From Henriciella sp. (lineage in GTDB: Bacteria > Pseudomonadota > Alphaproteobacteria > Caulobacterales > Hyphomonadaceae): 40,572 nucleotides of DNA. The translations under genes were made by a program, and so were the position numbers. The DNA lies in NCBI GenBank assembly GCA_013213825.1, contig JABSQA010000016.1, positions 1 to 40,572 of the forward strand, read 5' to 3'. This document shows positions 17,267 through 39,482 of this stretch, piece after piece. Within the stretch, counting starts at the first letter, position 1; every line of letters begins with the position of its first letter. The notes beneath the pieces are model-generated. The model worked only from the letters and a program-made list of their open reading frames with translations. It did not search any database and was not told the DNA's origin.

Positions 17267-17671
17267 GTGAGTGATCTAATCCAAAGATGCCTTGATGCTG
17301 GACTCAGTATGACGACAGCGCGTCGCGCTATTTTGCGGGCCTTGGAAAACTCAGAAGACCATCCCGATGCGCTCATGCTGCACGATCGTGCCAAGGAATT
17401 CGATCCGACGATTGCCCAAGCCACAGTTTACCGAACCATGCGACTACTGGAACAAGAGGGACTGGTTGAAAAACATGATTTCGGAAACGGGCGAGCCCGC
17501 TACGAAGAAGCCGAAAAAGAGCAGCACGATCATCTTATCAACCTGAGCACCGGTGAAATCATTGAGTTTCATGACACAAACCTTGAGGCCTTAAAGATTG
17601 AAATCGCAAAAAGGTTGGGGTTCGATTTGAAAGATCATCGGTTGGAGCTTTATGGGGTTCCACGCGAATGA
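17267..17671 (+). CDS. Fur-family regulator, divergent paralogue
   Basis: A 134-aa winged-helix metalloregulator: helix-turn-helix QATVYRTMRLLEQEGLVEKHDFGNGRARYE, then the metal-site segment HDHLINLSTGEIIEFHD. Like many alphaproteobacterial Fur proteins it lacks the CxxC zinc pair. Compared with the second Fur of the window (36371) it has lost one His before HDHL and differs through the first helix (LIQRCLDAGLSMTTARRAIL). Start: GTG 17267 is chosen since ATG 17225 lies within a Fur box. It overlaps the following methyltransferase gene by 4 bases. It may tune this iron island while the other is the main Fur. Confidence 0.87.
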   Translation: MSDLIQRCLDAGLSMTTARRAILRALENSEDHPDALMLHDRAKEFDPTIAQATVYRTMRLLEQEGLVEKHDFGNGRARYEEAEKEQHDHLINLSTGEIIEFHDTNLEALKIEIAKRLGFDLKDHRLELYGVPRE

Positions 17672-18333
17672 CCCCGCAACTCGTCATGCGTTCAATCATG
17701 ACGATTATTATGATCGGTCTCGCCGGGCTTATACTGTGGAGATTGCAAATCAACGGGTGGGGCTCGATCGTTTGGCTTGCATCGGCCGTGCTCATGATGG
17801 TCATTCGTTCTCCCTACGCTGCTAGAAACAAAGAAAATGAGATCACCGAGCGATTTGCGGTCAGCAAAGAACGGTTCTTACTCTTGCTCGTGTCTGTGGG
17901 TGGTACGCTTCTACCTGTTCTGCATCTTTCGACAGGGCTCTTGCTGTTTGCAAACTATGAAGCGCCGAACTGGCTGCCCGTCGTCGGCATTCTGTTCTTA
18001 GTGCCGGGGTTTTGGTTATTCTGGCGTAGCCACGCAGACCTCGGACGCAACTGGAGCGTTACGACGGAGCTCCGTGAAGCTCATACGCTGGTTTCGCACG
18101 GCGTATACAAGCATATACAACACCCCATGTACTTTGCGATTTGGCTGATTTTTCTTGCCTATCCTTTTCTCATTCAAAACTGGATTGTAGGTGCAGCCGG
18201 AATTGTCAGCTTTGCAATTTTGTATGCAGTGCGGGTGCCAATCGAGGAAGCGATGATGCGTCATGAGTTTGGCATTGAGTACGAAGAATATTCGTCTCGA
18301 ACGGGGCGCCTTTGGCCGCAACTATCGAAATGA
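17668..18333 (+). CDS. Isoprenylcysteine methyltransferase-like membrane protein
   Basis: A 221-aa protein with about five membrane helices and the ICMT/PEMT signature: GVYKHIQHPMYFAIW followed by EEAMMRHEFGIEYEEYSSRTGRLWP. Bacterial relatives are SAM-dependent methyltransferases of lipids or small molecules; the substrate is unknown. Translational coupling to the Fur paralogue (ATGA) suggests a joint unit. It could methylate a membrane-located metabolite in response to iron, but that is a guess. Confidence 0.8.
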   Translation: MTPQLVMRSIMTIIMIGLAGLILWRLQINGWGSIVWLASAVLMMVIRSPYAARNKENEITERFAVSKERFLLLLVSVGGTLLPVLHLSTGLLLFANYEAPNWLPVVGILFLVPGFWLFWRSHADLGRNWSVTTELREAHTLVSHGVYKHIQHPMYFAIWLIFLAYPFLIQNWIVGAAGIVSFAILYAVRVPIEEAMMRHEFGIEYEEYSSRTGRLWPQLSK

Positions 18334-18352
18334 AGTGGAATGAGGCATATTT

Positions 18353-18371
18353 GCACTTGATAATCATTCGC
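18353..18371. promoter_or_regulatory. Fur box ahead of the 63-aa protein
   Basis: GCACTTGA-TAA-TCATTCGC with a perfect right half, 39 bases before the start at 18411. The 17-base core equals that at 16417-16433. Confidence 0.8.
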
Positions 18372-18410
18372 AACTATGTTGAGGTCTCTTTACGCAGATA
18401 GGAGACCCAA

Positions 18411-18602
18411 ATGCTCGGAACGCACGCGGATACCATCGCTTGGTTGGAGCGCCAGCTCAAAGAGCTCGAAACCTGGCGACGAGACTTGATCGGTGAAGGC
18501 GCATGCGAACCATGCCGATTGGAACAAATCGACCTTCACCGCACTTGGTTGGAAGATCAGATCTCCCGCCTGGTCGATGCAAATCTCAAACCCGCCACAT
18601 AA
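18411..18602 (+). CDS. 63-aa helical-hairpin protein, paralogue of 36953-37150
   Basis: A small cytosolic protein predicted as two helices (about 8-28 and 36-55) joined by a turn with a CEPC pair. It aligns without gaps to the 65-aa protein at 36953-37150: 12 of 44 positions are identical, giving the pattern W-L-x2-Q-x4-E-x-W-R-x2-L-x16-H-x2-W-L-x4-S-x-L. No known family is recognised. AGGAGA lies 5 bases before the ATG and a Fur box lies just upstream, so it is expressed under iron shortage. The gene is followed within 6 bases by a long RNA hairpin, an arrangement repeated at the other copy. It might be an RNA- or protein-binding adaptor. Confidence 0.75.
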   Translation: MLGTHADTIAWLERQLKELETWRRDLIGEGACEPCRLEQIDLHRTWLEDQISRLVDANLKPAT

Positions 18603-18607
18603 CCCCT

Positions 18608-18702
18608 TTGGGCTGCAACATGACTGATGTCATCGCGCTTTTGACGTCAGCCTCTCGGCAGCAAATCTCCTCCCAGACCTTGAGCAACATGTTGCAGCCC
18701 AA
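18608..18702 (+). promoter_or_regulatory. Long RNA hairpin (GCTGCAAC stem) after the 63-aa gene
   Basis: TTGGGCTGCAACATG (18608-18622) and CATGTTGCAGCCCAA (18688-18702) form a perfect 15-bp stem. Inside is a second hairpin, CTGATGTCA (18624-18632) with TGACGTCAG (18642-18650). An unpaired stretch contains TCTCCTCCC (18666-18674), which is complementary to Shine-Dalgarno sequences; TCTCCT exactly matches AGGAGA of the upstream gene (18400-18405). It ends 9 bases before the Shine-Dalgarno of the next gene. No T-run follows, so it is not a normal terminator. It may be a small RNA or a translation-control element. Confidence 0.7.
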
Positions 18703-18723
18703 TTCCCTAAAAGGACTTTCGAA

Positions 18724-19221
18724 ATGAACTCCAGTCTTGTTGCCCACAAAACGCTGACAGATCTTGGTCCAGGGGCGCAAATCGCAACATTTGGTTTTCG
18801 TGCTTGTGCGTTTGGTCAAACCCGGTGCTGTTGTTTGCTGAATCTCTTCAAAGATTTCTTTGGTGCGGAAATTGGCGGGCCTGTATTGGGGCGCTTTATC
18901 AGACTCGCCGAGTGTCTTGGCAACAATGGCCTGAGACGGATAGACTTGACCGTTCCGAATGCGATTACGTTCACCCATGATGAGGCATCGCTCTTGAGCG
19001 CCCTCTCATCGATGCAACACGGTGCCTTTGCGCAAGCGCGTGCGCACATGACATGGCTCTTGGCACGTTCTCCACAGTCCGACGAAATGAACATTATTTC
19101 CGATTTGGCGAATTTCTTTTCAGCGCAGGACATGATCGTTCAAAGCCCTGAATATGAGTCTATGCCGGCACAGCGTGAGACCGACAAGCGACCGGCACTC
19201 GCCCTGGTGCAGAATGTCTAG
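18724..19221 (+). CDS. Unknown protein with a Cys-rich motif, upstream of the siderophore reductase
   Basis: A 165-aa protein that I do not recognise. Near residues 27-45 it has a striking cluster, CAFGQTRCCCLLNLFKDFFG, with four Cys in ten residues. The second half (about 85-125) is helical and TPR-like (LLSALSSMQHGAFAQARAHMTWLL). AAAGGA lies 8 bases before the ATG, just after the large hairpin. It is followed by the siderophore-interacting protein gene, so a role in handling iron or haem, or in sensing it through the Cys cluster, is possible. Confidence 0.7.
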   Translation: MNSSLVAHKTLTDLGPGAQIATFGFRACAFGQTRCCCLLNLFKDFFGAEIGGPVLGRFIRLAECLGNNGLRRIDLTVPNAITFTHDEASLLSALSSMQHGAFAQARAHMTWLLARSPQSDEMNIISDLANFFSAQDMIVQSPEYESMPAQRETDKRPALALVQNV

Positions 19222-19261
19222 TCTCCGTGATTTGGCGAAGCCGACCTCAGGAGAGGCATTG

Positions 19262-20146
19262 ATGGTGCCGGATAATCCCTATCTTTTGATGACGTTTTTA
19301 GTCCTGAAACGGGAACGTCTTTCGCCTTCGTTCATCCGAATTACGTTCGCCAACCAAGATGGTTTGAGTTTTACCAGCTGGGGTCCTGATCAACGCGTAA
19401 AACTCTATCTGCCGGAGCCTGGAACCGCCCCGCCAAGACTGCCGCTAACGGACTGGAATGCCGTTTGGCAAAAACTTGATCAACACATTCGACCTGCACG
19501 CCGGTCCTATACGATCCGACAAGTTCGACCTGATCGAGGTGAACTCGATATTGATTTCGTAGACCATGGCGTTGAGGGACCCGCCTCTGCTTGGGCGTTT
19601 CACGCGAAACCTGGCGACCTCCTGCAAATCGCGATTCCAAACGGCGCTTTCACGGGCAAGCCAATTGGTTTCGAGTGGCGTCCGCCACAAGGTGTATCGC
19701 GGCTCCTGCTCATGGGCGACGAAACGTCGTTGCCCGCGATCAGCAACATCCTCGAACACATTCCTGAAACGGTTATATCGATTGATTGTTTCGTTGAGGT
19801 CCCTCGACCTGGTGACGACGCGGCAGCGGGAGAGCTGGCGAGCCGCATTACCTGGCTGCCACGTTATGACGAACCGCCCGGCGCGAAACTAAAGCAGGCT
19901 CTGGGCTATTCGCAAATGCCAGAGCTTTCGCGATTGAAACGCCTGCATGGTTTGGAAAAATCGGTCGATCCCAATGAACGGATGTGGGATCCGGCGGTGG
20001 ACACGAGCGGTCCCTTCTACGCGTGGGTTGCGGCTGAAGGCGGTGCGGTCAAATTCATTCGACACGCTTTGATGAAGGATTGTGGTTTGCCGAAAAGTGC
20101 CGTGTCGACGATGGGATACTGGTACCTCGGTCGGCCGTTTCACTAG
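19262..20146 (+). CDS. Siderophore-interacting protein (FAD-dependent ferric reductase, SIP family)
   Basis: A 294-aa cytosolic flavoprotein of the ViuB/YqjH type that reduces imported ferric siderophores. Seen: the flavin-binding RRSYTIRQVRP and ELDIDFVDHG..GPASAWA segments, then the NAD(P)H domain with LLMGDETSLPAISNIL and, near the end, FYAWVAAEGGAVKFIRHAL and GYWYLGRPFH. ATG 19262 has AGGAG at 8 bases; longer frames from 19214 or 19154 have weak signals and overlap the preceding gene. It ends 10 bases from the convergent methyltransferase gene. Confidence 0.92.
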   Translation: MVPDNPYLLMTFLVLKRERLSPSFIRITFANQDGLSFTSWGPDQRVKLYLPEPGTAPPRLPLTDWNAVWQKLDQHIRPARRSYTIRQVRPDRGELDIDFVDHGVEGPASAWAFHAKPGDLLQIAIPNGAFTGKPIGFEWRPPQGVSRLLLMGDETSLPAISNILEHIPETVISIDCFVEVPRPGDDAAAGELASRITWLPRYDEPPGAKLKQALGYSQMPELSRLKRLHGLEKSVDPNERMWDPAVDTSGPFYAWVAAEGGAVKFIRHALMKDCGLPKSAVSTMGYWYLGRPFH

Positions 20147-20156
20147 TTCTTAGCTT

Positions 20157-21002
20157 CTACTCCACCGGCTGGGCACCGGTCACGATATGGACGTGCGCGT
20201 CCATGCGGACCTCTCCATCGATCAAGTGTTTTGAAAAGAAAGATGCGAGTTCCGAAAATGCCGCCCGAGCTGTGATCTGATCGCTTTGATCGAGCAACTG
20301 TCCAATCGAAAATGCGGTCAGCGCGAAGCGCGCTGCGGCGGTCGCATCCATGCCGCCGCCAATCGCGAGTTTGTCTTTCCAACTCGCACTCGAGACATCT
20401 GCGAACCCGATTGACGCCAATAAAGAGACAAACTCATCGGCGTTCTGATATCGAAAAGGTCCGGGCGCTCCAGGTTCAGGCGTCGGTACAACGATATGGT
20501 TGCTCAATATGGTTCGAATGCTGGACATCCATGGATTTTCAGATGGCGGCCCCCAAACCGCAAAGCCAAACCGGCCGCCTGGTTTGAGCCATTGAGCCAA
20601 GTTTGCAAATGCGGCGTCAGCCGCGGGAAAGAACATGATCCCAAAGCGCGACGTTAGCCGGTCAAACTGCGCGGCCTCTTTGAGTGGTTGGCCTGCGTCC
20701 TGAACATGGAAATGTATCGGGACATCGCCATAGGCTTCCTTTGCCATTGCCGCATCGATGAGCGCGGGCGAAATGTCGAATCCGTCGACAGAACTGCCTG
20801 GATAGGCGTTGCGCGCAATCGCGATGCTGGTTTCGCCGCCACCACATCCAATGTCGGCGATCCGATACGGCGCATCCAAATCGAGCGCTTCTATCAAAGG
20901 CGCATTCACGGGCGCCAACATGGCCTCAAGAGGGACCATCGAATCTCGCCAGGCCTCTCCTCGATCGGTTGACCAATCAGATGCTGAAATATTCGCGACC
21001 AT
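20157..21002 (-). CDS. Class I SAM-dependent methyltransferase
   Basis: A 281-aa cytosolic methyltransferase with motif I IADIGCGGGETSIAIAR, the acidic residue ending strand 2 (GFDISPALI), and LKPGGRFGFAVWGPP as motif post-II/III. It resembles UbiE/UbiG-like small-molecule methyltransferases; the substrate is unknown. ATG 21002 is preceded by GGAAGAAA; the longer frame to 21158 overlaps sodX and is rejected. It is the last gene of the nickel SOD operon, starting 1 base after the sodX stop. Confidence 0.85.
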   Translation of the reverse strand: MVANISASDWSTDRGEAWRDSMVPLEAMLAPVNAPLIEALDLDAPYRIADIGCGGGETSIAIARNAYPGSSVDGFDISPALIDAAMAKEAYGDVPIHFHVQDAGQPLKEAAQFDRLTSRFGIMFFPAADAAFANLAQWLKPGGRFGFAVWGPPSENPWMSSIRTILSNHIVVPTPEPGAPGPFRYQNADEFVSLLASIGFADVSSASWKDKLAIGGGMDATAAARFALTAFSIGQLLDQSDQITARAAFSELASFFSKHLIDGEVRMDAHVHIVTGAQPVE

Positions 21003-21003
21003 A

Positions 21004-21291
21004 CTATTTCTTCCGATCAATGTGATAAACGAGCTTACCCTGAACACGCGCGCGCTCAATAGGTCCCATGGATTCCCGGGACAGTGAGTTGGCGTTTGCG
21101 CCTTCAAGCCAAAGCGAGTCCGCGTTGACATCAATCGCGCGCTTAACGATTTTTCCAAAGCGCGGATGATTGATCAAAAGAACATCGCCATCGCGATAAA
21201 TTGCGCTGCGTTTGAAGAGCGCAAACGCGCCCGGCGAGAGCATGGGGGACATGCTCTCGCCCGCCACTCGGATGAGTGACCAACCCAGCAT
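21004..21291 (-). CDS. sodX: Nickel-type superoxide dismutase maturation protease
   Basis: A 95-aa signal-peptidase-like (S24/S26) protease. Seen: the catalytic Ser in GESMSPMLSPG, the GDVLLINHP strand and the catalytic Lys in KIVKRAI. SodX removes the N-terminal leader of SodN so that the new N-terminal His can bind nickel. It starts immediately after the sodN stop codon (TAA then ATG), the usual gene pair. Confidence 0.92.
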   Translation of the reverse strand: MLGWSLIRVAGESMSPMLSPGAFALFKRSAIYRDGDVLLINHPRFGKIVKRAIDVNADSLWLEGANANSLSRESMGPIERARVQGKLVYHIDRKK

Positions 21292-21789
21292 TTAGTCAGC
21301 CAGAACCGGATATACGAGTTTGAGTTGCGGTGGATATGGGCATGTTTTCCGCGTCGTTTCGATCGACTTGGTGCGCCAGAAGATTTCTGCAAACTCGTTG
21401 ACCAGCTCAACCAAAGCGAGGCCGTCTTCGCGGTGCACATCCTGCTTGCAGGCGCTCGCCTTTTGCATGATGGCATGGACGAGGGCGTGAACATTCGGAT
21501 GGGCTTCAAGCAGAGGCGCCTTGAAATAGTCGCCCCATATGATGCGGATCTCCTGCTTCACTTTCTCCGCTTCTTCCTCTTTTCGCAGCGTGCAGCGCGC
21601 CCGAAGGTTGGCGAGTGCTACGGGGTCTTCGCTCGCGCCATCATGCGCGATATCCATGAGACGCACGACGGAGACGGCGGCGATCAAAGCCGGGCCGGGG
21701 TCGTAAATTCCGCATGGTATGTCACAATGAGCTGACGCACGCGCGATAAGGCCTTTGCCGTCGAGATAGTTGAGAATTGAGTAGATCAT
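21292..21789 (-). CDS. sodN: Nickel superoxide dismutase
   Basis: SodN disproportionates superoxide using nickel. The hallmark nickel hook HCDIPCGIYDP begins at residue 21, so a 20-residue leader ending in RASA is removed and His1, Cys2 and Cys6 of the mature protein bind the metal. The rest is the expected four-helix bundle with the IIWGDYFKAPLLEAHPNVH region; total length 165 aa is normal. ATG 21789 fits the leader; the frame runs open to 21933 without family character. A Fur box stands ahead of the operon, which makes sense as an iron-sparing swap for FeSOD. Confidence 0.96.
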   Translation of the reverse strand: MIYSILNYLDGKGLIARASAHCDIPCGIYDPGPALIAAVSVVRLMDIAHDGASEDPVALANLRARCTLRKEEEAEKVKQEIRIIWGDYFKAPLLEAHPNVHALVHAIMQKASACKQDVHREDGLALVELVNEFAEIFWRTKSIETTRKTCPYPPQLKLVYPVLAD

Positions 21790-21814
21790 GGTGTTTTTCT
21801 TTCTTGGGGTAGAG

Positions 21815-22294
21815 TCAGTTTGCTGACTTTTTCCAGAAGGCGAGGGCGGCTGCTTTAGCATCCTCGACGATAGACTTGGTTTCGCTGTGACTGTCTCTGA
21901 GATCTGCCAACAGTCGCGGTAAGTGCTCTGCACATCCGCGCTTGAGGCTTTCTGGCGACCGGGCGCTGGTCAAGGCTTCTGTGAAAATCCGCACAGCCGA
22001 TATGAGTTGTTCTCTTGCTGCTTTTTCGTCACCGCGCGCACGCCTCTGGTTTGCGGCATTCGTGGCGGATACGATGAGCATGGGAGGAGCGTGTGGTTGT
22101 ACGAGTGCGTAGCCGTTCCAGGCTTCAGCGAATATCATACGTGCCTCGTGGTGTGCCTGATCATAAGCGACGCCCGCAGCGTCGAGATGTCCAGCATTGA
22201 GTGCGGCATTGGCTTGCAATGTCAGGCGTTTCCAGCGCGCGTCAAATTCTGGTTGAATTTGTTTTGCATGGGAGCGCGGTTCGAGACTATCCAT
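21815..22294 (-). CDS. Helical TPR-like protein, resembling OrfX of iron-regulated SOD operons
   Basis: A 159-aa soluble, all-helical protein: RWKRLTLQANAALNAGHLDAAGVAYDQA looks like a TPR helix pair and QPHAPPMLIVSATNAANQRRARGDEKAAREQL a second. In Pseudomonas the Fur-regulated fagA-fumC-orfX-sodM operon has a protein of this size and style next to a superoxide dismutase; the similarity is by memory of layout, not by alignment. It lies second in the operon, overlapping the His-rich gene by 8 bases and ending 25 bases before sodN. It might act as a metallation or assembly helper. Confidence 0.65.
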   Translation of the reverse strand: MDSLEPRSHAKQIQPEFDARWKRLTLQANAALNAGHLDAAGVAYDQAHHEARMIFAEAWNGYALVQPHAPPMLIVSATNAANQRRARGDEKAAREQLISAVRIFTEALTSARSPESLKRGCAEHLPRLLADLRDSHSETKSIVEDAKAAALAFWKKSAN

Positions 22295-22481
22295 TTCGGC
22301 CGTCTTTCAAATACGCGACGCATTTCATCGTAGCCCAGGTCCCGAGCGCGCCTGCTGCGAGGCCGATCAATGCAAATCCCCAAAGCGGTAGTTCATGAGA
22401 ATGTGGCACTGGGTGGTCGTGAGCGAATGCGGGAAGGGCCAATCCCCCAACGGTCAAACTCGAAAAAACGATCGATTTCAT
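22287..22481 (-). CDS. Mini membrane protein with His-rich periplasmic start
   Basis: A 64-aa protein: a signal peptide ending PAFA, then HDHPVPHSHE (four His in ten residues), then one membrane helix (about 33-55) and a short basic tail. The His cluster would sit at the outer face of the inner membrane and could bind nickel or another divalent metal. It is the first gene of the nickel SOD operon and overlaps the second by 8 bases. No family is recognised; a nickel-delivery or permease-helper role is inference from position. Confidence 0.7.
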   Translation of the reverse strand: MKSIVFSSLTVGGLALPAFAHDHPVPHSHELPLWGFALIGLAAGALGTWATMKCVAYLKDGRNG

Positions 22482-22533
22482 GGAGCACTCCTTTTGCGAT
22501 GGGTTGTCATGAATAGGGAAGAATTTCTCAAAT

Positions 22534-22552
22534 GCAACTGATAATCATTCGC
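22534..22552. promoter_or_regulatory. Fur box between the SodN operon and the flavoprotein operon
   Basis: GCAACTGA-TAA-TCATTCGC has a perfect right half and is centred between divergent starts at 22481 and 22653, so it can govern both operons. Confidence 0.82.
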
Positions 22553-22652
22553 ATATCAAAAAATTTGTGTTACATGACCCCATCGGCGGAGAACGTTTGC
22601 GCGAGCAAAAAACAAAAGCCGGATAAAGATAATTGTATCTCGGAGGACTTGC

Positions 22653-24044
22653 ATGGACGTTTTGGAAACCGACTACCTGATCATCGGGGCGGGCGCCTCG
22701 GGCATGGCGTTTGCCGATACAATCTTGTCTGAGACCGACCATGAAATGATCTTGGTCGATCGTCGAACGCAACCCGGTGGACACTGGGTAGATGCTTACC
22801 CGTTTGTCGAGCTGCATCAGCCGTCAGCATATTATGGTGTGAACTCGCTGCCGCTTGGCGCGGACCGGATCGATACGAGCGGAATCAATGCAGGATTTTA
22901 TGAGCGCGCTGGCGCGGCCGAGATCCAGCAATATTATCGCAAAGTCCTGGCAGACGTTTTTGAGCCGAGTGGGCGCATCAAGTTTCAATCGGCCAGCGAC
23001 TATCTCGGGGCTCAAAACGGCGAACATATCATCCAGTCTAATCTAACTAGTCGCCAAACGCTGGTGAAAGTTCGGCGTGTCTTGGTCGATGCCACGGTGA
23101 CGCAGTCCACCATACCCGCGCGCCACGTGCCGAAGTTTGATATTGATGACGGGGCCACGTTGGTGACACCTAATCAGCTCGTCGACATCGCTAACCCCAA
23201 AGGCATCACAGTGCTGGGAGCCGGAAAAACCGGCATGGATGTTTGTGTCTGGTTGCTCCAGCAAGGGGTCGATCCTGACGAAATTACCTGGGTGCGCCCA
23301 CGCGATGTTTGGATGACGGACCGCACTTACGCGCAGCCGCTAACCATGGCCGGGAGCATGATCAAGTTTGGTGCGGCCGCGATGCAAGCCGCTGCGGCGG
23401 CGAGCGATGCCGATGACTATGCGCTGCGGATGGAGGAGCAGGGTATGATGTTTCGTGTGGATCCAACCATAGGAGCTGTCGTCAATCGCGGCGCGACAGT
23501 ATCGCGCCCAGAATTGACGCTTATGCGGCAGATCGAGCGGGTGGTGAGGAAGGGGTATGTCCGCGCCATTTCGCAGACCCGGGTCATCATGGATGACGGC
23601 GAGATAGCGTCCAATCCAGGACGCGTATTTGTTGATTGCACAGCCCCAGGCTTAAGCACCACACCAGCCTCGACAATTTTTGAAGATGGAAAGATCAGCC
23701 TTCATTTTACGACCCGCGGCGTCGCACCATGGAGTGCCGCGCTGGTGGGCTGTGTCGAGTCGCTCGGTCTGACGCTTGAAGAAAAGAACAGACTTTGTCC
23801 GGCGCTGCCGCGAACCGGTGATATGAGTGGCTTTCTCAATATTATGCGGATCGGGTTGCCGGTCGAGAATGAACGGCGCGCTGTCAGTGAGCTATCTGAT
23901 TGGAGTGCGAAAGCCAGGCTTAATCCAGGGCGCGCTATTCCCGATCATATGAATGATCCAGACGTTCAAGCAGGCTTCGCTGCAATGTTTCAAAATTTCC
24001 AACCGGCTATGGAAAACCTCGATCGGATTTGCCGCCCATCCTAA
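22653..24044 (+). CDS. FAD/NAD(P)-dependent oxidoreductase (monooxygenase-like)
   Basis: A 463-aa flavoprotein with an N-terminal FAD Rossmann motif (LIIGAGASGMAFAD, residues about 9-22), RTQPGGHWVDAYPFVELHQPS as in flavin monooxygenases, and a second nucleotide motif ITVLGAGKTGMDVCVW near residue 190. It probably oxidises or hydroxylates a small molecule; it is not a close match to the ornithine or lysine hydroxylases of siderophore synthesis. CGGAGG stands before the ATG. The gene is opposite the SodN operon across a Fur box and precedes a VOC-fold gene by 18 bases, which suggests that both act on one compound under iron shortage. Confidence 0.82.
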   Translation: MDVLETDYLIIGAGASGMAFADTILSETDHEMILVDRRTQPGGHWVDAYPFVELHQPSAYYGVNSLPLGADRIDTSGINAGFYERAGAAEIQQYYRKVLADVFEPSGRIKFQSASDYLGAQNGEHIIQSNLTSRQTLVKVRRVLVDATVTQSTIPARHVPKFDIDDGATLVTPNQLVDIANPKGITVLGAGKTGMDVCVWLLQQGVDPDEITWVRPRDVWMTDRTYAQPLTMAGSMIKFGAAAMQAAAAASDADDYALRMEEQGMMFRVDPTIGAVVNRGATVSRPELTLMRQIERVVRKGYVRAISQTRVIMDDGEIASNPGRVFVDCTAPGLSTTPASTIFEDGKISLHFTTRGVAPWSAALVGCVESLGLTLEEKNRLCPALPRTGDMSGFLNIMRIGLPVENERRAVSELSDWSAKARLNPGRAIPDHMNDPDVQAGFAAMFQNFQPAMENLDRICRPS

Positions 24045-24062
24045 ACCGAGAAGACCAAGACG

Positions 24063-24776
24063 ATGATTAATATTATTCGACGCAGCCATGGCTTTCAGCT
24101 CGATCATATCGGTCCGGGCGTGCCTAATACCGAAGCTGGTGTGAAATGGGTCGAGGAGAAGACCGGTGCGAAGGTTGACTTGCATGATCCGGAACCGGGT
24201 CAGTTTTACTGGAGTGGAAGCCTCGCGATCGGCGAACACTCATTCCTGGAAATCATCGGACCAAACCCGGATTACAAGAAGTTTCAACCCTTTGCGGCAC
24301 TGATTGAAACCCTGTCAGAGCCACAGCTACTGTTCTGGTATATCGCGGTCGAGGATTTTGCCGCGTTTCAGGCTCTGGCGCGGCAAGAGAAGGCGAAACT
24401 CGAGAGGATAGAAGCGATCAATATCGAAGACGTTGATGCGGCCCAAGCCAGCTATCGGCGTGGGTTGATCGGTCCGGGCTTCTTGTCCGAACGTCCCAAT
24501 GTCATTCAATGGCTCAAGCGACCCAATCGGGAGTCTCAAGAAGCGCCGGTCTGTAAATTGACGGATTTTCGCCTTTCGAATCCTCAAGCGGACAAGATCA
24601 ATAATGTGTTTGAGAAACTGGGGATCGATGTGCCGGTCGCAAAAGGGGCGTCGTCAATAGGTGTCACGATCGATACTCCGAAAGGCCCTTGGTCAATAGA
24701 GAATAAGGGTGTGCGTTGGACCATGCCCGGCATGCTCGTGAACGTCGCTGGGCTGTGGTGGCGGACGCGACGCTAG
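24063..24776 (+). CDS. Glyoxalase-like (VOC superfamily) protein
   Basis: A 237-aa protein with two VOC-type halves: FQLDHIGPGVPNTEAGVKWVEEKTG with the usual first metal-ligand His, LAIGEHSFLEIIGPNP, then a second half with KLTDFRLSNPQADKINNVFEKLG. VOC enzymes use a divalent metal for isomerisation, lyase or dioxygenase reactions. It is downstream of and likely co-transcribed with the FAD protein. The substrate is unknown. Confidence 0.78.
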   Translation: MINIIRRSHGFQLDHIGPGVPNTEAGVKWVEEKTGAKVDLHDPEPGQFYWSGSLAIGEHSFLEIIGPNPDYKKFQPFAALIETLSEPQLLFWYIAVEDFAAFQALARQEKAKLERIEAINIEDVDAAQASYRRGLIGPGFLSERPNVIQWLKRPNRESQEAPVCKLTDFRLSNPQADKINNVFEKLGIDVPVAKGASSIGVTIDTPKGPWSIENKGVRWTMPGMLVNVAGLWWRTRR

Positions 24777-24849
24777 CATCCAAACAGATTATGAAAAGCG
24801 GCGCCGCGTCCGCGGCAAAACTGCAACAGATGCTAAAATGAGTCTTTTT
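24774..24849 (+). terminator. Possible branched terminator after the VOC gene
   Basis: TAGCATC (24774-24780, including the stop codon) pairs with GATGCTA (24829-24835), enclosing the hairpin GCCGCG-TC-CGCGGC (24803-24816). A short T-run (CTTTTT) follows at about 24844-24849. The long loop makes this uncertain. Confidence 0.4.
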
Positions 24850-24868
24850 GCAAACGAATTGCAATTGC
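24850..24868. promoter_or_regulatory. Second, weaker Fur box ahead of the receptor at 24956
   Basis: GCAAACGA-ATT-GCAATTGC fits 6 and 5 of 8 bases in the two halves. It would make a tandem with the strong box 43 bases downstream. Confidence 0.45.
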
Positions 24869-24910
24869 AATAAGGATTTTTTCCGGCTAAAGCACTCCTC
24901 ATCTCTAGTT

Positions 24911-24929
24911 GCGAATGAATATCATTCGC
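24911..24929. promoter_or_regulatory. Perfect Fur box ahead of the haem-type receptor
   Basis: GCGAATGA-ATA-TCATTCGC is a flawless 8-3-8 inverted repeat, 27 bases before the start at 24956. It is used here as the reference for the other boxes. Confidence 0.9.
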
Positions 24930-24955
24930 TATTTTCTAGGTTAGAGGGATCCAAA

Positions 24956-27025
24956 ATGAAGTTTAATGCGAACAAGAACCGACTGCTTATTGCCACTGCG
25001 ATTGGCTTTGCTGTCATGATGCCGAGCATGGCTGTTGCTCAAGAAGAGACCGACACCGCCAGCGAAACGCAAGCCAGTGAAGATGGCGAATTTCTCGGCG
25101 AGCTGACACTCGGCCAGAGTAAGCGGGAAGTGCAAACCGGCACTGCAACGCCGCTGACCACGATCAAACAAGAAGAGATCGATGACCGTCAGGCTAACAC
25201 GATTGCTGAGCTGATTGACTCGGTGCCTGGTGTGACGCTGGTCAACGGACAAACGCCGCAAGGCTCGGGGATCAACATTCGCGGATTCGGCGCAAACAGC
25301 ATTTACGGGACCGATCAGAAGGTGGCCGTCCTGGTCGATGGGGCAACAACTGGCGCCGAGGAAATCTATCGGGTCAGCAATCAACTCTTCACCGACCCGT
25401 ATCTTTATAAGAGTGTCGATGTGATCCGCGGAACGGTTGGAAGCTTCGAATACGGATCCGGCATCGTCGGCGGCGTGGTCCTGCTCGAAACGAAAGATGC
25501 GTCGGACTTTACAGGTGGCGAACCTGGGTTTGGTGGGGCGTTGACCCTTGGTGGTCAAACCAATGGTGACGGCTTCAACGGCTCAGGTATCTTGGCCTGG
25601 CAGCCCAGCGAGAAAGCGGAGTTCCTTTTCAACTACACCTATCGTGATCAAGACAATCAAGAAGATGGGAGCGGAAACGAGATTGGGAACTCGGCGTTTG
25701 AATTGCCGTCGTTCCTCGTCAAAGGGCGTTATGCATTTGACGATACGCACTCGATTATGGCGAGCTATACCCAATCGGATACAGCTGACCGCGATGTGCC
25801 TTACGACACCTTTGTCACAGGCACGGACTTTTTCGGTAATGTCGACCGGGATGTGACCACGCAAACCGGATCTCTGTTCTACTATTTCCAACCGGCGGGG
25901 AATGACCTGATCGATGTGGAAGCCGCGTTGACTTATTCCAATCAAGAGATTGATCAAACTTACATCCCGGGCACGAACGGCTTCGGGAGCCCAGTTGGTT
26001 TTGGCGTCACCAATGCCGATCTACAGTATGAGCGTACCAAGCTGACCGTGAAAAACACGTCCTTCGTGCAGACAGGGTTGATCGAGCACGAAATTCGAAC
26101 GGGTGTCGAATTTATCAAAAATGACCGGCTTGAAGCCAGCGCTGCCCCAGGCGGCACCGACAATCGCCAGGCGATCTTCATCATCGACAATATCGACTTC
26201 GGCAATGGGCTGACATTCACGCCAGCGCTTCGCTATGAGAACCAAACGCTGGAAACAGATTTCTTTGATCTTGATGCTGAGGCGCGAGTTGAGGGCGAGT
26301 TCGATGATAGCGCGCTCATGGGCGGCGCGTCACTGCGATATCAATTCGAAAATGGATTCGCAGTTTTTGGGAGCTACGCTTACACCGAAAGCCTTCCAAT
26401 TCTGGACGATACGCCGACCACGGGAACCAGTAATCGGTCCAATATTTTTACGGCCGAAGAGGCTTCAACTTACGAGGCCGGATTTAGCTATGACACGGTG
26501 GGCGTGTTCAACGAAAGCGATACGCTGTCTTTCAAACTCAATTATTACGACACGACACTGGAAGACATCACCTTCATCGGTGGACTGGACGAGATTTCAT
26601 TGCAGGGCGTGGAGATTGAAGGATCGTTCGCGACTGAAGGCGGCTTCTATGTCGACCTGAACGGGAACTTCTCAGACGGAGATGAAACCGATGTCGCAGG
26701 CGTTTCCGTAACCTATCGTAGCCTGACGGCGGACAGCGTTCGTGTCACAGCTGGTAAGCGGTTTGGCCGCTTCCTCGATGTCAGTCTCGAAGCGCTGGCG
26801 GTAGATGACGCCGATGTCTCTTTCCGTTCGGGGAATCCCGAGCAGGGCGATTCCTACAATATCTTCAATGCTCGCGCGACGGTGAGCCCACAATCTGGCT
26901 TCTTGAAGGACACGTCGTTCCGCTTCGGGATCGAGAATTTGTCCGACGAAGATTATACGCCGAACCTGTCGACGCGAAAAGCGACGGGTCAGAATTTCAA
27001 GCTAACGGTGACCCGCCAATTCTAG
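24956..27025 (+). CDS. TonB-dependent receptor, haem/haemoglobin type
   Basis: A 689-aa outer-membrane receptor: signal peptide (LLIATAIGFAVMMPSMAVAQ), a plug from about residue 50 with LIDSVPGVTLVNG and INIRGFGANSIYGTDQKV, then VDVIRGTVGSFEYGSGIVGGVVLLETKDASDF, the form typical of haem-family plugs, and a barrel ending in QNFKLTVTRQF. The ligand could be haem or a haem protein; the FRAP/NPNL pair of classical haem receptors is not evident, so a siderophore is possible. ATG 24956 has AGAGGGA upstream, whereas the frame from 24848 runs through the Fur box. It leads into the exbB-exbD-exbD-tonB genes, 111 bases later. Confidence 0.88.
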   Translation: MKFNANKNRLLIATAIGFAVMMPSMAVAQEETDTASETQASEDGEFLGELTLGQSKREVQTGTATPLTTIKQEEIDDRQANTIAELIDSVPGVTLVNGQTPQGSGINIRGFGANSIYGTDQKVAVLVDGATTGAEEIYRVSNQLFTDPYLYKSVDVIRGTVGSFEYGSGIVGGVVLLETKDASDFTGGEPGFGGALTLGGQTNGDGFNGSGILAWQPSEKAEFLFNYTYRDQDNQEDGSGNEIGNSAFELPSFLVKGRYAFDDTHSIMASYTQSDTADRDVPYDTFVTGTDFFGNVDRDVTTQTGSLFYYFQPAGNDLIDVEAALTYSNQEIDQTYIPGTNGFGSPVGFGVTNADLQYERTKLTVKNTSFVQTGLIEHEIRTGVEFIKNDRLEASAAPGGTDNRQAIFIIDNIDFGNGLTFTPALRYENQTLETDFFDLDAEARVEGEFDDSALMGGASLRYQFENGFAVFGSYAYTESLPILDDTPTTGTSNRSNIFTAEEASTYEAGFSYDTVGVFNESDTLSFKLNYYDTTLEDITFIGGLDEISLQGVEIEGSFATEGGFYVDLNGNFSDGDETDVAGVSVTYRSLTADSVRVTAGKRFGRFLDVSLEALAVDDADVSFRSGNPEQGDSYNIFNARATVSPQSGFLKDTSFRFGIENLSDEDYTPNLSTRKATGQNFKLTVTRQF

Positions 27026-27053
27026 GCATCTCCTCTCAGGAACCGTTTTCTTG

Positions 27054-27092
27054 GCGGAGGTTGATCATCCCTTGCGGATTTTCAGCCTCCGC
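27054..27092 (+). repeat. Inverted repeat between receptor and exbB
   Basis: GCGGAGG (27054-27060) and CCTCCGC (27086-27092) form a 7-bp dyad with a 25-base loop and no T-run. It may be an RNA processing or stabilising element that separates receptor and energiser expression. Confidence 0.35.
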
Positions 27093-27136
27093 ACTTCTCG
27101 TTCGAGATGATCGAGATCAGACCTTCAGGAGTTCAC

Positions 27137-27790
27137 ATGGACAGTCTCTTTTCTCCGTTTCGAGCCCTCTATGATCTGGGTGGGCCAGTGCTTCTGCTTT
27201 TGCTGGCAGTATCCATTTTCACGCTGACCGTGATCATTCTCAAGGCGTGGCAATTCCGGTCGGCGCGCGTCAGTAAGGGACAGCAAATTCGCCAGGCGAT
27301 CGCCAGCTGGGATCGCGGCGAACATGATCGCGCCTTATCTGAAATTCAGAGCTCAAGACACTTTCTGGCGCCAGTCATCGCACTCGGCATGCAAGAACGA
27401 AGCGGCGACGGCCTGACGAAACGCCTCGAGTCCGAAGCCGAACAAAAACTACAACCCATGGAGGGTGGCTTTCGCATTCTCGACATGGTCGCTCAGCTTG
27501 CCCCTTTGCTTGGTCTGCTCGGGACTGTGATCGGAATGATCGAGGCGTTCCAGGCCTTGCAGGATGCAGGATCCCAAGTTGATCCAGCTGCCCTGGCAGG
27601 CGGTATCTGGGTGGCTTTGCTTACAACTGCGGCAGGGCTCACCGTGGCGATGCCAACTTCGGTCGCGTTATCCTGGTTCGAGGCGCAAATGGATGAAGCA
27701 CGATCGCTCGCAGATTATGCGTTTTCCGTGATCAGCCGCCCGGTCAGCCAACCCAACGAAGTGGAGGGCTTGTCGCGGCATGTCGCTTAA
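27137..27790 (+). CDS. exbB: ExbB/TolQ-type proton channel protein
   Basis: A 217-aa inner-membrane protein of the MotA/TolQ/ExbB family with three membrane helices: LGGPVLLLLLAVSIFTLTVIIL at the start, and the pair around LDMVAQLAPLLGLLGTVIGMIEAF and GGIWVALLTTAAGLTVAMPTSVAL. ExbB forms the pentameric scaffold around ExbD that drives TonB with the proton motive force. AGGAG precedes ATG 27137. It starts the unit exbB-exbD-exbD-tonB, all overlapping. Confidence 0.93.
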   Translation: MDSLFSPFRALYDLGGPVLLLLLAVSIFTLTVIILKAWQFRSARVSKGQQIRQAIASWDRGEHDRALSEIQSSRHFLAPVIALGMQERSGDGLTKRLESEAEQKLQPMEGGFRILDMVAQLAPLLGLLGTVIGMIEAFQALQDAGSQVDPAALAGGIWVALLTTAAGLTVAMPTSVALSWFEAQMDEARSLADYAFSVISRPVSQPNEVEGLSRHVA

Positions 27791-28166
27791 GCGGGTCAGA
27801 CGGAGGCGCAAAGCGTCGATCACGTCCCTAATTGACGTGATCTTTCTGCTGTTGCTCTTCTTCATGCTCGCATCGACCTTCTCCAAATTCTCGGAGATCG
27901 ACATCGCTGTGGCAAATGCCTCTGGCATTGGTCAGTCATCAACGGATGTCGCTTCGTTGCATATCCAGTCTGACCGCGTTTTTTGCAACGAGACGGAGAC
28001 CCCAGATGTCGAGCTGGTGTCGCGCCTGAGCGAATTGGGAGCTACGGGCACGAGCGGTGTCAGGATCAGTCTTGCGGATGACGTCTCAACGCAACGGCTC
28101 GTCGATGTGCTGTCGCTTGTGAAACAAGTGCCGGGTTTAACGATCCAGATCGAGGAGCCGTCATGA
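27780..28166 (+). CDS. exbD: ExbD-type protein, canonical copy
   Basis: A 128-aa protein with a short basic cytosolic start, one membrane helix SLIDVIFLLLLFFML carrying the essential Asp of ExbD/TolR (residue 18), and a periplasmic domain. It lies 11 bases inside the end of exbB. Together with the second ExbD it may form a mixed dimer inside the ExbB ring. A single Cys occurs in the periplasmic domain (RVFCNETE). Confidence 0.92.
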   Translation: MSLKRVRRRRKASITSLIDVIFLLLLFFMLASTFSKFSEIDIAVANASGIGQSSTDVASLHIQSDRVFCNETETPDVELVSRLSELGATGTSGVRISLADDVSTQRLVDVLSLVKQVPGLTIQIEEPS

Positions 28167-28543
28167 AACGCCAATTCAACGCCTCGAAGCGCGAACCGAT
28201 CATTTCCTTGATCAATATCGTATTCTTGATCCTGATCTTCTTCATGGTTGCCGGATCGCTCTCGGCCAATCGTCCGTCCGGGATCGAATTCGTTCAAGCA
28301 GAAGGCCTGGATTGTTGTACCGAAGAAGACGCGCTCGATATCCTCGCGGATGGGACTTTGGTTCGGCACGGCGAGCGGTTGGCGTCGCTCGAACAGTTTA
28401 TTGCTGAAACAGAATCCCTCGAGACAACGATTCGCTTGCGCCCTGACCGGGAATTCCCGGCGCGTGACTTGTTGCAAAGCGTGAGCACCCTGCAAGACGC
28501 TGGCGCCACGCATATCGTCGTGCTGACGGAGCAAGCAACATGA
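28163..28543 (+). CDS. Second ExbD-type protein with Asn in place of the membrane Asp
   Basis: A 126-aa ExbD paralogue whose membrane helix reads SLINIVFLILIFFMVAG. The proton-carrying Asp of the family (LIDVIF in the first copy) is Asn18 here. The rest of the fold, a short basic start and a periplasmic domain of normal size, is kept, with a CC pair (LDCCTEED). It overlaps exbD by 4 bases and tonB by 4 bases. Tandem exbD genes occur elsewhere, for example exbD1-exbD2 in Xanthomonas; the Asn change suggests a structural or regulatory partner that cannot carry protons. Confidence 0.88.
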   Translation: MKRQFNASKREPIISLINIVFLILIFFMVAGSLSANRPSGIEFVQAEGLDCCTEEDALDILADGTLVRHGERLASLEQFIAETESLETTIRLRPDREFPARDLLQSVSTLQDAGATHIVVLTEQAT

Positions 28544-29376: not shown

Positions 29377-29386
29377 GGGCACGGTA

Positions 29387-30028: not shown

Positions 30029-30036
30029 GCCGTCTG

Positions 30037-31509: not shown

Positions 31510-31540
31510 TATGAAAAGTCCCATTGACAATTTTCTTTTT

Positions 31541-31559
31541 GCAAATGATTTGCATTCTC
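31541..31559. promoter_or_regulatory. Fur box between the ApbE and DUF4198 genes
   Basis: On the minus strand this reads GAGAATGC-AAA-TCATTTGC (right half 7 of 8). It lies between divergent starts at 31509 and 31611 and can serve both. Confidence 0.72.
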
Positions 31560-31610
31560 GTATAATCAATGGCACAGTTTGGCTACTTATTTTTTGGGAG
31601 AAATGCAGAA

Positions 31611-32405: not shown

Positions 32406-32437
32406 TCAACAAAATTGAAAAACGAGGGAATTTCAAA

Positions 32438-33010: not shown

Positions 33011-33048
33011 ACGATCCGTTTCGACATTGCTCCGCGCGATTTAGATTG

Positions 33049-33081
33049 CACCGATCTCTGTGTTGGAGATCGGTGTCTTTC
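33049..33081 (+). terminator. Rho-independent terminator after the EF-hand gene
   Basis: CACCGATCTC and GAGATCGGTG form a perfect 10-bp stem with a 7-base loop, followed by TCTTTCT. Confidence 0.75.
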
Positions 33082-33176
33082 TATGCGGAGGTCGATTGCC
33101 AGATGATCAATGGCATCACCACGCACACATCCAACGCACAGATGCAGCCGTATAAAACAATAGGACAGGAGGTAGT

Positions 33177-33745: not shown

Positions 33746-33860
33746 TCTGATAGACGCTCGTTTTGAGAGCCGTTTTTGATTTCCCCGAACGATTGGTGCC
33801 AAATGTGGGTGTGGCATTTGGGGCACTGTTGAAAGTGTAAACTCATTTACGCTGTCATGT

Positions 33861-33879: not shown

Positions 33880-33922
33880 AAAAGCTTAGTTGCGGCTCAT
33901 CAAGTCAGAAAATGAGCCCAAA

Positions 33923-36867: not shown

Positions 36868-36927
36868 GCAAAAAATTGCTGCAACGTTCCAACCTTGGAG
36901 GAAACGCAAGGCCGGAACGTTGCAGCA
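36868..36927 (-). terminator. Intrinsic terminator with GCTGCAAC stem after the 65-aa gene
   Basis: On the minus strand a 14-bp stem (36914-36927 with 36877-36890, GCTGCAACGTTCC core) encloses a 5-bp inner stem CCTTG/CAAGG with loop CGTTTCCTC. A run of six T follows directly (ATTTTTTG), so it ends the receptor and small-gene transcript. Its stem shares GCTGCAAC/GTTGCAGC and its loop shares a CCTC pyrimidine motif with the hairpin at 18608-18702, which follows the paralogous gene. Confidence 0.8.
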
Positions 36928-36952
36928 GTAAGTGAACAGGCCAAAAGGAGAC

Positions 36953-37150
36953 TCAAGCGGCCTGTCGAGACTTTGGGGCTTCCAGGTCGGATACTTCGGC
37001 AGTCAACCAAGCATAGTGTTTCTCAAGTCGCATCACTACTTCCATGTCGATGTCAGGGCGTGATGCGAGTTCTTCACGCCATGCCTCTATCACGCGAACT
37101 TGCGTTTTAAGCCAGCAGACCATGGAGGCATCATCGAGAGGTAAGCACAT
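36953..37150 (-). CDS. 65-aa helical-hairpin protein, paralogue of 18411-18602
   Basis: A small protein predicted as two helices with a turn near residues 30-34. It shares, without gaps, the pattern W-L-x2-Q-x4-E-x-W-R-x2-L-x16-H-x2-W-L-x4-S-x-L with the 63-aa protein at 18411, but lacks that copy's CxxC. TAGGA lies about 8 bases before the ATG. It begins 9 bases after the stop of the haem-type receptor at 37160 and so is expressed from the same Fur-controlled promoter. Function unknown; the pairing with a hairpin of similar sequence at both sites suggests an RNA-linked role. Confidence 0.75.
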   Translation of the reverse strand: MCLPLDDASMVCWLKTQVRVIEAWREELASRPDIDMEVVMRLEKHYAWLTAEVSDLEAPKSRQAA

Positions 37151-37159
37151 TGCGAAATC

Positions 37160-39325
37160 CTATTGTCCGAACTGCCAGGAAGCGGCGATCTTGAAGTTCG
37201 TGCCAGGTTCAGAAACGCCGGCAAACACGCGCTCATAGTCCTCGTCGAATACGTTATCGACGCCGACATCGAGACGTAGCCCTTCAATAAACTCAGGTCG
37301 GTAAGTCGCGTATAGATCAACTACGACGTAGCCATCTCGTTCGTCTTGGACGGTGAAGCCACCCACTCCATCTGAGACTCGTTGCTCAAAGTCTGAAGCA
37401 TGCTGCACGCGCGCGCCAAAACGGCTGTTCCACTCCGGCACTTTAACGCCGAGATTAACTGCAACTCGGTCCGGGGTGAGCGAACCAAGGTCTGATCCGT
37501 CGGACAAGTCGGTGCCTTCGATTGTTGAGAAACTCGCCCGCGCAAAGAAACGATCGGAGTCATAGTGAAGCTCGCCCTCCCATCCCTCGAGTTCGGCCTG
37601 AGCGACGTTGGCAGATTCCGACGTCCCGAATGTACAGGGCTGGAAGAAAGGCGGCGCAAAGCAGGTAGCATCTGGCGCAGCATTCACTGAGAGGTTGATG
37701 AGCTCGTCAGCTTCGGTTTCGAAATAACTGACTTTGGCCTGAAACCGATCAGAATCGACAAAGATCTTTCGAAAGTCGACACCCGTTCCGAATTCGACTG
37801 TTTGGGTTTCTTCTGGGACCAAATCTGGATTTGGGATAAAGTTGTTCGGGACAAACTCGAACGACCCCATGGCCGGGTTGAAGAGAACAGGATGCGGAAC
37901 AAGGAAATGCACGCCATCTAGATAAAGCTCATTGATAGAGGGTGCCCGAAACCCTTCGGAGTAAGATCCAAACAAGCGCAGCCATTCTGCGCCCTGTGGA
38001 GCAAAGCTCGCGGCAAACCTTGGAGAGATCGCCTCGTCGGAGTTTTCTTGATCTGGTGCAATGTCGGAGCTGCTTTCGAATTCATCATAACGCACGCCCG
38101 GAATGACAACGAATTGGCCTGCCGGGGTTTCAACAACCGCTTCCAGCTGCGCGAACACACCCGTGAATTCACTCTCACCATTCGGAACACCGCCGCGCGT
38201 GCCGTCCGTGGTCTGATCATCAGTGCCAACTTGTTCGTCTTTGTACCAGTCCCCGCCGACCGTGAGTGTCATGTCGGCGGCGCCTACAGAGAACCGAGAT
38301 GCATTTCGAATATTGAATCCTGTCGTTTCAATATCCCGAACGGTCGTACGTGGGATTGTGGCATCGAACTCATCGACGTCACTTGTCGTTTGATAAGCGT
38401 TGAAGCCGAGATCGATCCAGTTGTTCGTTTCAGGGTTGAAGGTTAGGCCCAACCGAAACGTATCTGTTGTGATGTCTTTTTCGACATCTTGGTCGAGGAG
38501 GCCATTGCCTGTTCCATTAACGCCCTGGCCGTTATTCGGTTCGATTGCGGTATTCGTGAACCGTTGCCAAGATCCCTCGACTGTGACTGCGTCACTAATC
38601 GCATAACTCCCTTTGATGAGCGCTGTTTGAATGTCATCGTCGGAGGGCAGATCAAAGTCTGATCCAAGCTCAATGTCTCCTGATTGGCGAATGCCGAAGC
38701 TTGCAATGCCGTCAAAAGCACCTTGGCGAGTGTACGCCGTGATGGAGGCGAGCGACTCTTCATTCACGCTTTGATAGCCAACCCGCGCTCGCGCGCCCCA
38801 GACTTCGTTATCTACCAAGAGATCGTCCGCATCGACGCTCTCAAACGCGAGGACGCCGCCGACAGCGCCGGAACCATATAGCGCCGAAGCGGGGCCGCGA
38901 ACAACTTCAGCTGTCCCGATCAATTCTGGATCTACGAAGAACCGACCGTCGTGCGCTGAGGTGAAGCTCTGACGCGCACCATCGAGAAGAATCAATACGT
39001 TTTGACCAGACAATCCGCGCAGAGTCGGGAGCTCGCCGGTGCGACGGGGCCCACCAACAAAATCCAAGCCTGGGACATCGCGAAGGGCATCAGAAATTGC
39101 TGAAGGAGCAAGCGTTTCGAGTGCTTCACGATCCACAACTGTGACTTGGCCGGGATAATCGAAAACGGGAAGGGGATTGGACGTACCGTAAATGGTCACC
39201 GTTTCTTCGCGCAACTCATCTTCGGGGGCGTCGGCATCTTGCGCGGTGACAATCGGCGCGATCGAAAGTGCAGTGGTAGCAACGAGTAAGGCGCGCAGGT
39301 TTTGGCGGTTCGTTCGGAAGGTCAT
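37160..39325 (-). CDS. TonB-dependent haem/haemoglobin receptor
   Basis: A 721-aa outer-membrane receptor: signal peptide (ALLVATTALSIAPIVTAQ), TonB-box-like EETVTIYG, a plug with LPTLRGLSGQNVLILLDGARQ and VVRGPASALYGSGAVGGVLAFESVDADDLL, then a barrel with the haem-receptor signature FRAPSINELY followed by NPDLVPEE, and a C-terminus FKIAASWQFGQ. These features mark the hemin/haemoglobin receptor class. GGGA precedes ATG 39325, and a Fur box lies 29-47 bases upstream. The small protein gene at 36953 follows in the same transcript; the DUF6607 gene is divergent. Confidence 0.93.
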   Translation of the reverse strand: MTFRTNRQNLRALLVATTALSIAPIVTAQDADAPEDELREETVTIYGTSNPLPVFDYPGQVTVVDREALETLAPSAISDALRDVPGLDFVGGPRRTGELPTLRGLSGQNVLILLDGARQSFTSAHDGRFFVDPELIGTAEVVRGPASALYGSGAVGGVLAFESVDADDLLVDNEVWGARARVGYQSVNEESLASITAYTRQGAFDGIASFGIRQSGDIELGSDFDLPSDDDIQTALIKGSYAISDAVTVEGSWQRFTNTAIEPNNGQGVNGTGNGLLDQDVEKDITTDTFRLGLTFNPETNNWIDLGFNAYQTTSDVDEFDATIPRTTVRDIETTGFNIRNASRFSVGAADMTLTVGGDWYKDEQVGTDDQTTDGTRGGVPNGESEFTGVFAQLEAVVETPAGQFVVIPGVRYDEFESSSDIAPDQENSDEAISPRFAASFAPQGAEWLRLFGSYSEGFRAPSINELYLDGVHFLVPHPVLFNPAMGSFEFVPNNFIPNPDLVPEETQTVEFGTGVDFRKIFVDSDRFQAKVSYFETEADELINLSVNAAPDATCFAPPFFQPCTFGTSESANVAQAELEGWEGELHYDSDRFFARASFSTIEGTDLSDGSDLGSLTPDRVAVNLGVKVPEWNSRFGARVQHASDFEQRVSDGVGGFTVQDERDGYVVVDLYATYRPEFIEGLRLDVGVDNVFDEDYERVFAGVSEPGTNFKIAASWQFGQ

Positions 39326-39398: not shown

Positions 39399-39417
39399 GC
39401 AATTGCAAGTCATTCTC
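39399..39417. promoter_or_regulatory. Fur box ahead of the DUF6607 gene
   Basis: GCAATTGC-AAG-TCATTCTC (right half 7 of 8) lies 66-84 bases before the start at 39483. With the box at 39354 it gives each divergent gene its own site. Confidence 0.6.
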
Positions 39418-39482
39418 GATTGTATTAATGAAGGGTGCATCATTGCGGCCTCGCGGCCAGAACGCTTTTCAGGAGAACAACC

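Follow-up and report, generated by a model that had tools for sequence, protein, structure and literature searches.

Fur-controlled iron-starvation small RNAs (sRNAs) are central in enterobacteria and other bacteria. The logic of RyhB, PrrF, NrrF and FsrA, the last of which is described in part of its literature as also working with small proteins, is akin to that of the Fur-type box and candidate RNA reported here, and Rfam gave no match between our hairpins and these four families. In the same order of bacteria as our locus, the alphaR8 sRNAs (SisA-D of Caulobacter, MmgR, Rfam RF00519 suhB) share the seed UUUCCUCCC and its anti-Shine-Dalgarno (anti-SD) character with the hairpin family described below. 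SisA-D are described as having a single-stranded 10-mer, UUUCCUCCCU, with an anti-SD signature; point mutations back their base-pairing to the TonB-receptor leader CCNA_03574, and in Caulobacter they are sequestered by the sponge CrfA (Vogt et al. 2025, PMC12559287). For RusT, another Caulobacter sRNA, induction by iron starvation is shown in the published account, whereas it is only proposed for the present hairpin RNA. RusT also differs in being controlled by NtrYX, in having no Fur consensus in its promoter according to its authors, and in its four stem-loops, and that account, as far as it goes, mentions no small-protein gene. The 5' loop of GsrN, as described, has six tandem cytosines, and the aligned loops of our hairpins lack such a tract.

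The closest arrangement is the CIN1 locus of Rhodobacter, which is described as encoding the DUF1127 protein CcaF1 with CcsR RNAs in the 3' region (PMC10253847, PMC8625941). Both loci have an anti-SD-type RNA, here a candidate one, in the 3' region behind a small-protein gene. According to these descriptions CIN1 has an RpoH promoter and four CcsR RNAs, whereas the present module has an iron-type box and one or two hairpins. No sequence relation between the two was found, and both small proteins of our locus matched nothing in Pfam or NCBIfam, hence no DUF1127, the family of the CIN1 protein. The CcsR RNAs reportedly carry the anti-SD loop CCUCCUCCC; the loop core here is most commonly CGUUUCCUCCC, or a variant of it. 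Membership in the CcsR/Cuckoo type, to which a preliminary description of this DNA had likened the hairpins, was rejected on these grounds, the loop comparison resting on the reported CcsR sequence.

An earlier suggestion for Caulobacter, as far as its report describes it, is a Fur-repressed CC0682-sRNA1-CC0681-sRNA2 operon (PMC3751524). The protein profile used below had no match in family f2, so homology to CC0681 and CC0682 is without support. We take f2 to be the Caulobacteraceae, and the two genes are presumably those later named as Cdz bacteriocin genes. PMC5380434 mentions CC0681 a single time. A literature search with few subscription papers in its scope returned no paper joining Hyphomonas, Fur and an sRNA, and a broader one had none on Hyphomonas or Henriciella among the matches listed.

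The stretch analysed here (the window) comprises 40,572 nucleotides, positions 1 to 40,572 of contig JABSQA010000016.1 of Henriciella sp. (Hyphomonadaceae; GCA_013213825.1), a draft genome of 276 contigs and 93.8% completeness. It holds a region devoted to iron uptake, where TonB-dependent receptors are encoded at 10817, 24848, 33890 and 37160 and a siderophore-interacting protein at 19154, alongside two genes of the Fur family and those for a PKHD-type dioxygenase and a PepSY protein. An IS110-family transposase lies within the region at 6361-7395, and a tRNA scan found none.

Two small-protein genes stand in this setting. Gene 1 (18411..18602, plus strand) encodes 63 amino acids; homology search finds relatives, and the protein belongs to no Pfam or NCBIfam family. 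Gene 2 (36953..37150, minus strand) encodes 65 amino acids and has a TonB-dependent haem/haemoglobin receptor gene (37160..39325, minus strand) directly 5' of it in an apparent operon. The products of genes 1 and 2 are homologues (27% over 49 amino acids, E 4e-7), as the preliminary description had held in calling them paralogues. The genome has a third copy, on contig C229, and a strong hairpin follows all three. Protein 2 is predicted to form a two-helix hairpin (mean pLDDT 87.5); we consider this model uninformative, and a PDB search with it gave nothing below E 0.001.

Hairpin 1 (18608..18702, plus strand) has a 15-bp outer stem formed without a mismatch between TTGGGCTGCAACATG at 18608-18622 and positions 18688-18702, just as first described. 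The segment 18600-18712 folds at -40.6 kcal/mol (z -5.9), and none of 200 shuffles did as well. Its 65-nt interior is more than a simple loop, as it contains a second hairpin (18624-18650) and the anti-SD segment TCTCCTCCC (18666..18674, plus strand), a diverged variant of the family core CGTTTCCTCCC. No U-run follows. The covariance model of the family matches 18611-18699 at E 0.005, hairpin 1 being one of its training sequences. Between hairpin 1 and the siderophore-interacting protein, positions 18724-19221 encode a 165-amino-acid protein with no Pfam or NCBIfam match; the gene starts after the hairpins at loci L004 and L017 resemble its start.

Hairpin 2, also called hairpin B (36877..36927, minus strand), has a 14-bp stem formed by TGCTGCAACGTTCC (36927-36914) and 36890-36877, a loop with GCGTTTCCTCC, and then the T-run AATTTTTT. 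The 14-bp stem reported after the gene at 36953 thus holds up well, 36868-36935 having an MFE of -38.5 kcal/mol and a z of -8.1. It looks like a terminator, though it is absent from the list of a simple consensus scan; that scan of 17600-37500 gave 23 terminator sites against 21.5 in shuffles and included neither hairpin. The matching promoter scan gave 13 sites against 12.0, with no prominent sigma-70-like promoter 5' of the gene. A further hairpin A (36935..36966, minus strand), with GTCTCCTT in its loop, spans the stop codon of gene 2 and is kept in the four copies compared. Both main stems begin with GCTGCAAC, as had been noticed, and this start is not a matter of chance because it represents one form of a stem that covaries across the family and has the consensus GCCGCARCGC. 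The exact arrangement of GCTGCAAC and GTTGCAGC with a gap of 25-55 nt occurs genome-wide only at hairpin 2.

An Rfam scan of the window gave nothing above cutoff, suhB included, and nine named related loci, L223 among them, had no match at cutoff. The two window hairpins alone yielded sub-cutoff matches only, mostly to eukaryotic miRNA, lncRNA and snoRNA models. The best of these, mir-722 on hairpin 2 (25.7 bits against a cutoff of 81, E 0.003), was put down to generic long-stem similarity. Among eight relatives, a match of the alphaproteobacterial ar7 sRNA model overlapping the L031 hairpin (22.3 bits, cutoff 60, E 1.1) was judged to be chance.

Among 398 genomes from the order, the protein profile had a match in 117. 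Loci were taken from 75 of these (the remaining 42 were mostly weak matches), giving 80 distinct genes. A stem enclosing the anti-SD motif was found 3' of 37 of them by folding-based selection, after one chance pairing (L101) had been removed from 38. All 37 hairpins belong to Hyphomonadaceae, namely Henriciella, Hyphomonas and one further genus; the 43 small-protein genes without a hairpin include several of the window's own genus. When genes were instead chosen by the motif, with no selection on folding, 33 of the 80 had it within 110 nt past the stop codon. The best stem beat 20 shuffles in 30 of these 33, and in 32 the motif lay in the loop of that stem. Among the motif-less genes 11 of 47 beat their shuffles, four of the 11 being loop variants counted among the 37.

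For covariation, the 37 copies were reduced to 32 by removing five rows of duplicate trimmed sequence, and the end of one copy (L019) was trimmed by hand. In the 13-pair outer helix 99.4% of 353 cells are paired. Compensatory changes occur at nine of the 13 pairs, and 45 cells carry changes in both partners. Shuffled-letter controls gave 86.3% pairing, 6.0 compensatory pairs and 10.5 compensatory cells; none of 500 reached the observed paired share or compensatory-cell count, and six reached nine pairs. Sliding the partner by 1-3 columns lowered pairing to 20-57%, and RNAalifold predicts the same outer helix with 11 pairs. Relatedness of the copies and their prior selection for having a stem inflate these covariation figures; the latter bias does not affect the motif-first result. 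The stem covariation that was to be sought in homologous loci is thus present, and the proposed module of small protein and RNA hairpin with an anti-SD loop is a conserved one. As judged from sequence, the RNA element is real, conserved and covarying, and the unit is probably Fur-controlled.

When the covariance model R1 was run on 299 genomes, it found 23 loci, every one at a small-protein locus. At E<=0.01 two of the three copies of the window's genome escaped it, as did two in the sister Henriciella genome G001. Because known copies were missed, this result is no evidence against orphan copies, one of which was found by other means. In Henriciella the unit neighbours TonB receptor or siderophore-interacting-protein genes, and in the Hyphomonas loci inspected it lies between ornithine carbamoyltransferase and saccharopine-dehydrogenase-like genes. 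Gene, box and hairpin are kept together in these differing surroundings. In four Hyphomonas loci (L052, L058, L065, L077) a conserved TTGCCCTATGTGACGGG follows about 30-40 nt beyond the hairpin; this stretch sits 5' of the saccharopine-dehydrogenase-like gene in L052 and L223. Outside Hyphomonadaceae, two loci of family f4 (L083, L088) have a hairpin with a CCCTTCTCCTT loop 3' of the small-protein gene, which may be the same arrangement arisen independently. In genus g15, the small-protein gene at locus L097 has a Fur-type box and is followed by the stem CGCAGCGGACA with CGCCTCCCAG in its loop; this stem may be related to the hairpin but diverged.

The motif CGUUUCCUCC is exact in 26 of the 37 loops, and the core CGTTTCCTCCC is found in 25 with variants in the other 12, both window copies being variants (TCTCCTCCC in hairpin 1, GTTTCCTCCA in hairpin 2). 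The commonest core, CGUUUCCUCCC, is the alphaR8/SisA seed. In alphaR8 RNAs the 10-mer is single-stranded and follows a weak hairpin, and the RNA has a Rho-independent terminator, whereas the core here is enclosed by a covarying stem; unlike alphaR8, the present family has a stem of at least 10 pairs just 3' of a small-protein gene that has a Fur-type box. Searches with the suhB model matched neither window hairpin at E<=10, nor any of eight related loci at E<=5. Structurally, the hairpins are not alphaR8 members, though they share the seed.

Upstream of gene 1 stands the putative Fur site TTGATAATCATTCGCAA (18357..18373, plus strand), an exact TTGNNAATNATTNNCAA match that scores only 13 of 17 against the family consensus, which equals the shuffle maximum. 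A second box, TCGAGAATGACTTGCAA (39403..39419, minus strand), lies 5' of the haem receptor gene, and the window has 11 TTGNNAATNATTNNCAA-like sites at two or fewer mismatches against 2.2 expected. Across the family, a 17-bp box like TTGAGAATGACTTGCAA with at least 13 of 17 matches to a consensus derived from these same loci occurs within 130 nt 5' of 32 of the 37 hairpin genes, 26 of them at 16 or 17 matches; base shuffles of the upstream stretches (60 each) reached at most 13. Among genes without a hairpin 20 of 43 reach 13, with a shuffle maximum of 14. Four of the five hairpin genes below 13 lie directly 3' of a TonB receptor gene, and for two of these four a box was seen 5' of the receptor; the fifth (L004) scores 12. 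We infer that the 17-bp boxes are Fur boxes, a reading helped by their standing before TonB receptors in the window. Iron control of the small-protein unit, which had been proposed at the outset, is accordingly worded here as probable.

Genome G001 offers a natural comparison. Its contig C16 matches the region of the third copy in two stretches only. One (82% over 72 columns) is the promoter with its box; the other (77% over 104 columns) holds the end of the small open reading frame together with both hairpins. The stretches are 42 bp apart, compared with 2,376 bp in the window's genome; the receptor and the small protein are gone, and a protein search of G001 found only the other two copies. 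In the four copies of hairpins A and B all 68 of 68 cells are paired with three compensatory pairs; three pairs were reached by 285 of 500 shuffles, and six changed cells by 3 of 500. Going by its sequence, C16 is a natural non-coding version of the unit, in which promoter and hairpins stay and the protein is lost. Hairpin A is kept in this copy, which has no open reading frame, and its conservation where it is non-coding argues for selection on the RNA. This argument fails if the loss in C16 is a recent scar or an assembly error, as it could be.

The reading that we favour, at a probability of roughly 0.58, is a Fur-controlled dual unit, a small-protein mRNA whose 3' structured RNA acts in trans. 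Iron starvation would bring about one Fur-controlled transcript encoding the small two-helix protein, and this transcript would end in, or be processed to, the structured RNA. The hairpin would display the alphaR8/SisA-type anti-SD seed, which would pair in trans with the ribosome sites of GGGAGGAAACG-type mRNAs and lower their translation in iron shortage. Fur binding to the boxes, production and release of the RNA, its action in trans and its targets are what we infer at this point. The 43 of 80 genes without a hairpin, 20 of those 43 boxed, count against the dual unit, as do the diverged core of hairpin 1 and its box, which is no better than the best shuffle. A hairpin that serves only as a 3' stabiliser, terminator or intercistronic processing element, with an incidental loop sequence, would suit its place just 3' of the stop codon, the T-run after hairpin 2 and the at least five T in the 10 nt past 13 of the 37 stems. 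The other 24 have fewer than five, and the majority therefore have neither the U-tail typical of Hfq-dependent sRNAs nor such a terminator-like run. Together with a loop core that is more conserved than most stem letters and equals the alphaR8 seed, this makes the purely structural role unlikely.

The loop might otherwise act in cis by pairing with the ribosome site of its own gene and shutting off translation. The preliminary description had pointed to the match between TCTCCT in hairpin 1 and the AGGAGA of gene 1, which can indeed pair, and some Hyphomonas copies pair with their own site at -11 to -12 kcal/mol. Over the 37 copies, near-identical rows included, this match proved to be nothing special: pairing averages -8.31 kcal/mol with the own SD and -8.82 with the SDs of other members, and 4938 of 5000 permutations were at or below the own value. 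The absence of bias to the own SD speaks against control in cis, which we regard as highly improbable, and for action in trans. Alternatively, the sense alphaR8 seed could make the hairpin a decoy that titrates a CrfA-like sponge or competes with alphaR8 sRNAs. The seed is the one found in SisA-D, for which sequestration by CrfA is described (PMC12559287), and the window's genome has an alphaR8-like sRNA, L192, that scores 32.7 bits with suhB, below the cutoff of 41. Direct pairing with mRNAs needs fewer assumptions, and we consider the decoy rather improbable. The trans-acting dual unit is then the best reading of the sequences, and its novelty would be the combination of a known alphaR8 seed with a new architecture and signal. 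A more specific formulation, a Fur-controlled Caulobacterales dual-function mRNA/sRNA with the alphaR8 seed in a new stem and purely non-coding in one Henriciella, is tentative, at a little under even odds. The module is a concrete candidate for the Fur-controlled regulatory RNA that has been missing from this group of marine Caulobacter relatives, and it occurs in named Hyphomonas strains, the hairpin being present at loci of H. atlantica (L233), H. pacifica (L239) and H. chukchiensis (L220). One anti-SD seed may be reused across several RNA architectures under different signals.

A target search in eight genomes gave 84 sites, 62 of them with a distinct open reading frame of at least 80 amino acids. 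Six of these 62 genes with a GGAGGAAAC ribosome site encode TonB receptors, three of the six being orthologues; the eight whole genomes contain 290 receptors. The control-SD set comprised 128 sites, of which 90 were examined to give 51 open reading frames, at most one of them a TonB receptor (Plug was absent among the families listed). The enrichment is small and suggestive only. TonB receptors are targets of SisA and RusT, and their presence among the candidates here is a weak hint of the same kind.

The seed also occurs beyond the small-protein loci. Three motif loci in another family of the order have above-cutoff suhB/MmgR matches, and 12 of 20 motif sites from five f2 genomes appear alphaR8-like by eye. 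Of 200 genomes, 172 contain the extended motif GCGTTTCCTCCC. Hand-summed over 41 genomes from the window's family, its sites number 197 and those of its reversed control 15; these counts include the small-protein hairpins and may include opposite-strand ribosome sites. This excess over the reversed control across the order suggests a wider anti-SD network. Some GCGTTTCCTCCC sites (L189, L192, L204, L205, L207 and L214 were inspected) are alphaR8 sRNAs, and others lie in leaders or just inside coding starts, as does that of L204, which has a similar counterpart in L124 of G001. In the window's genome 6 of 30 distinct UUUCCUCCC sites reach a stem score of 9, compared with 1.2% of shuffled flanks; these stem-enclosed sites are L212, L208, L197, L189 and L216, plus the known copy L218.
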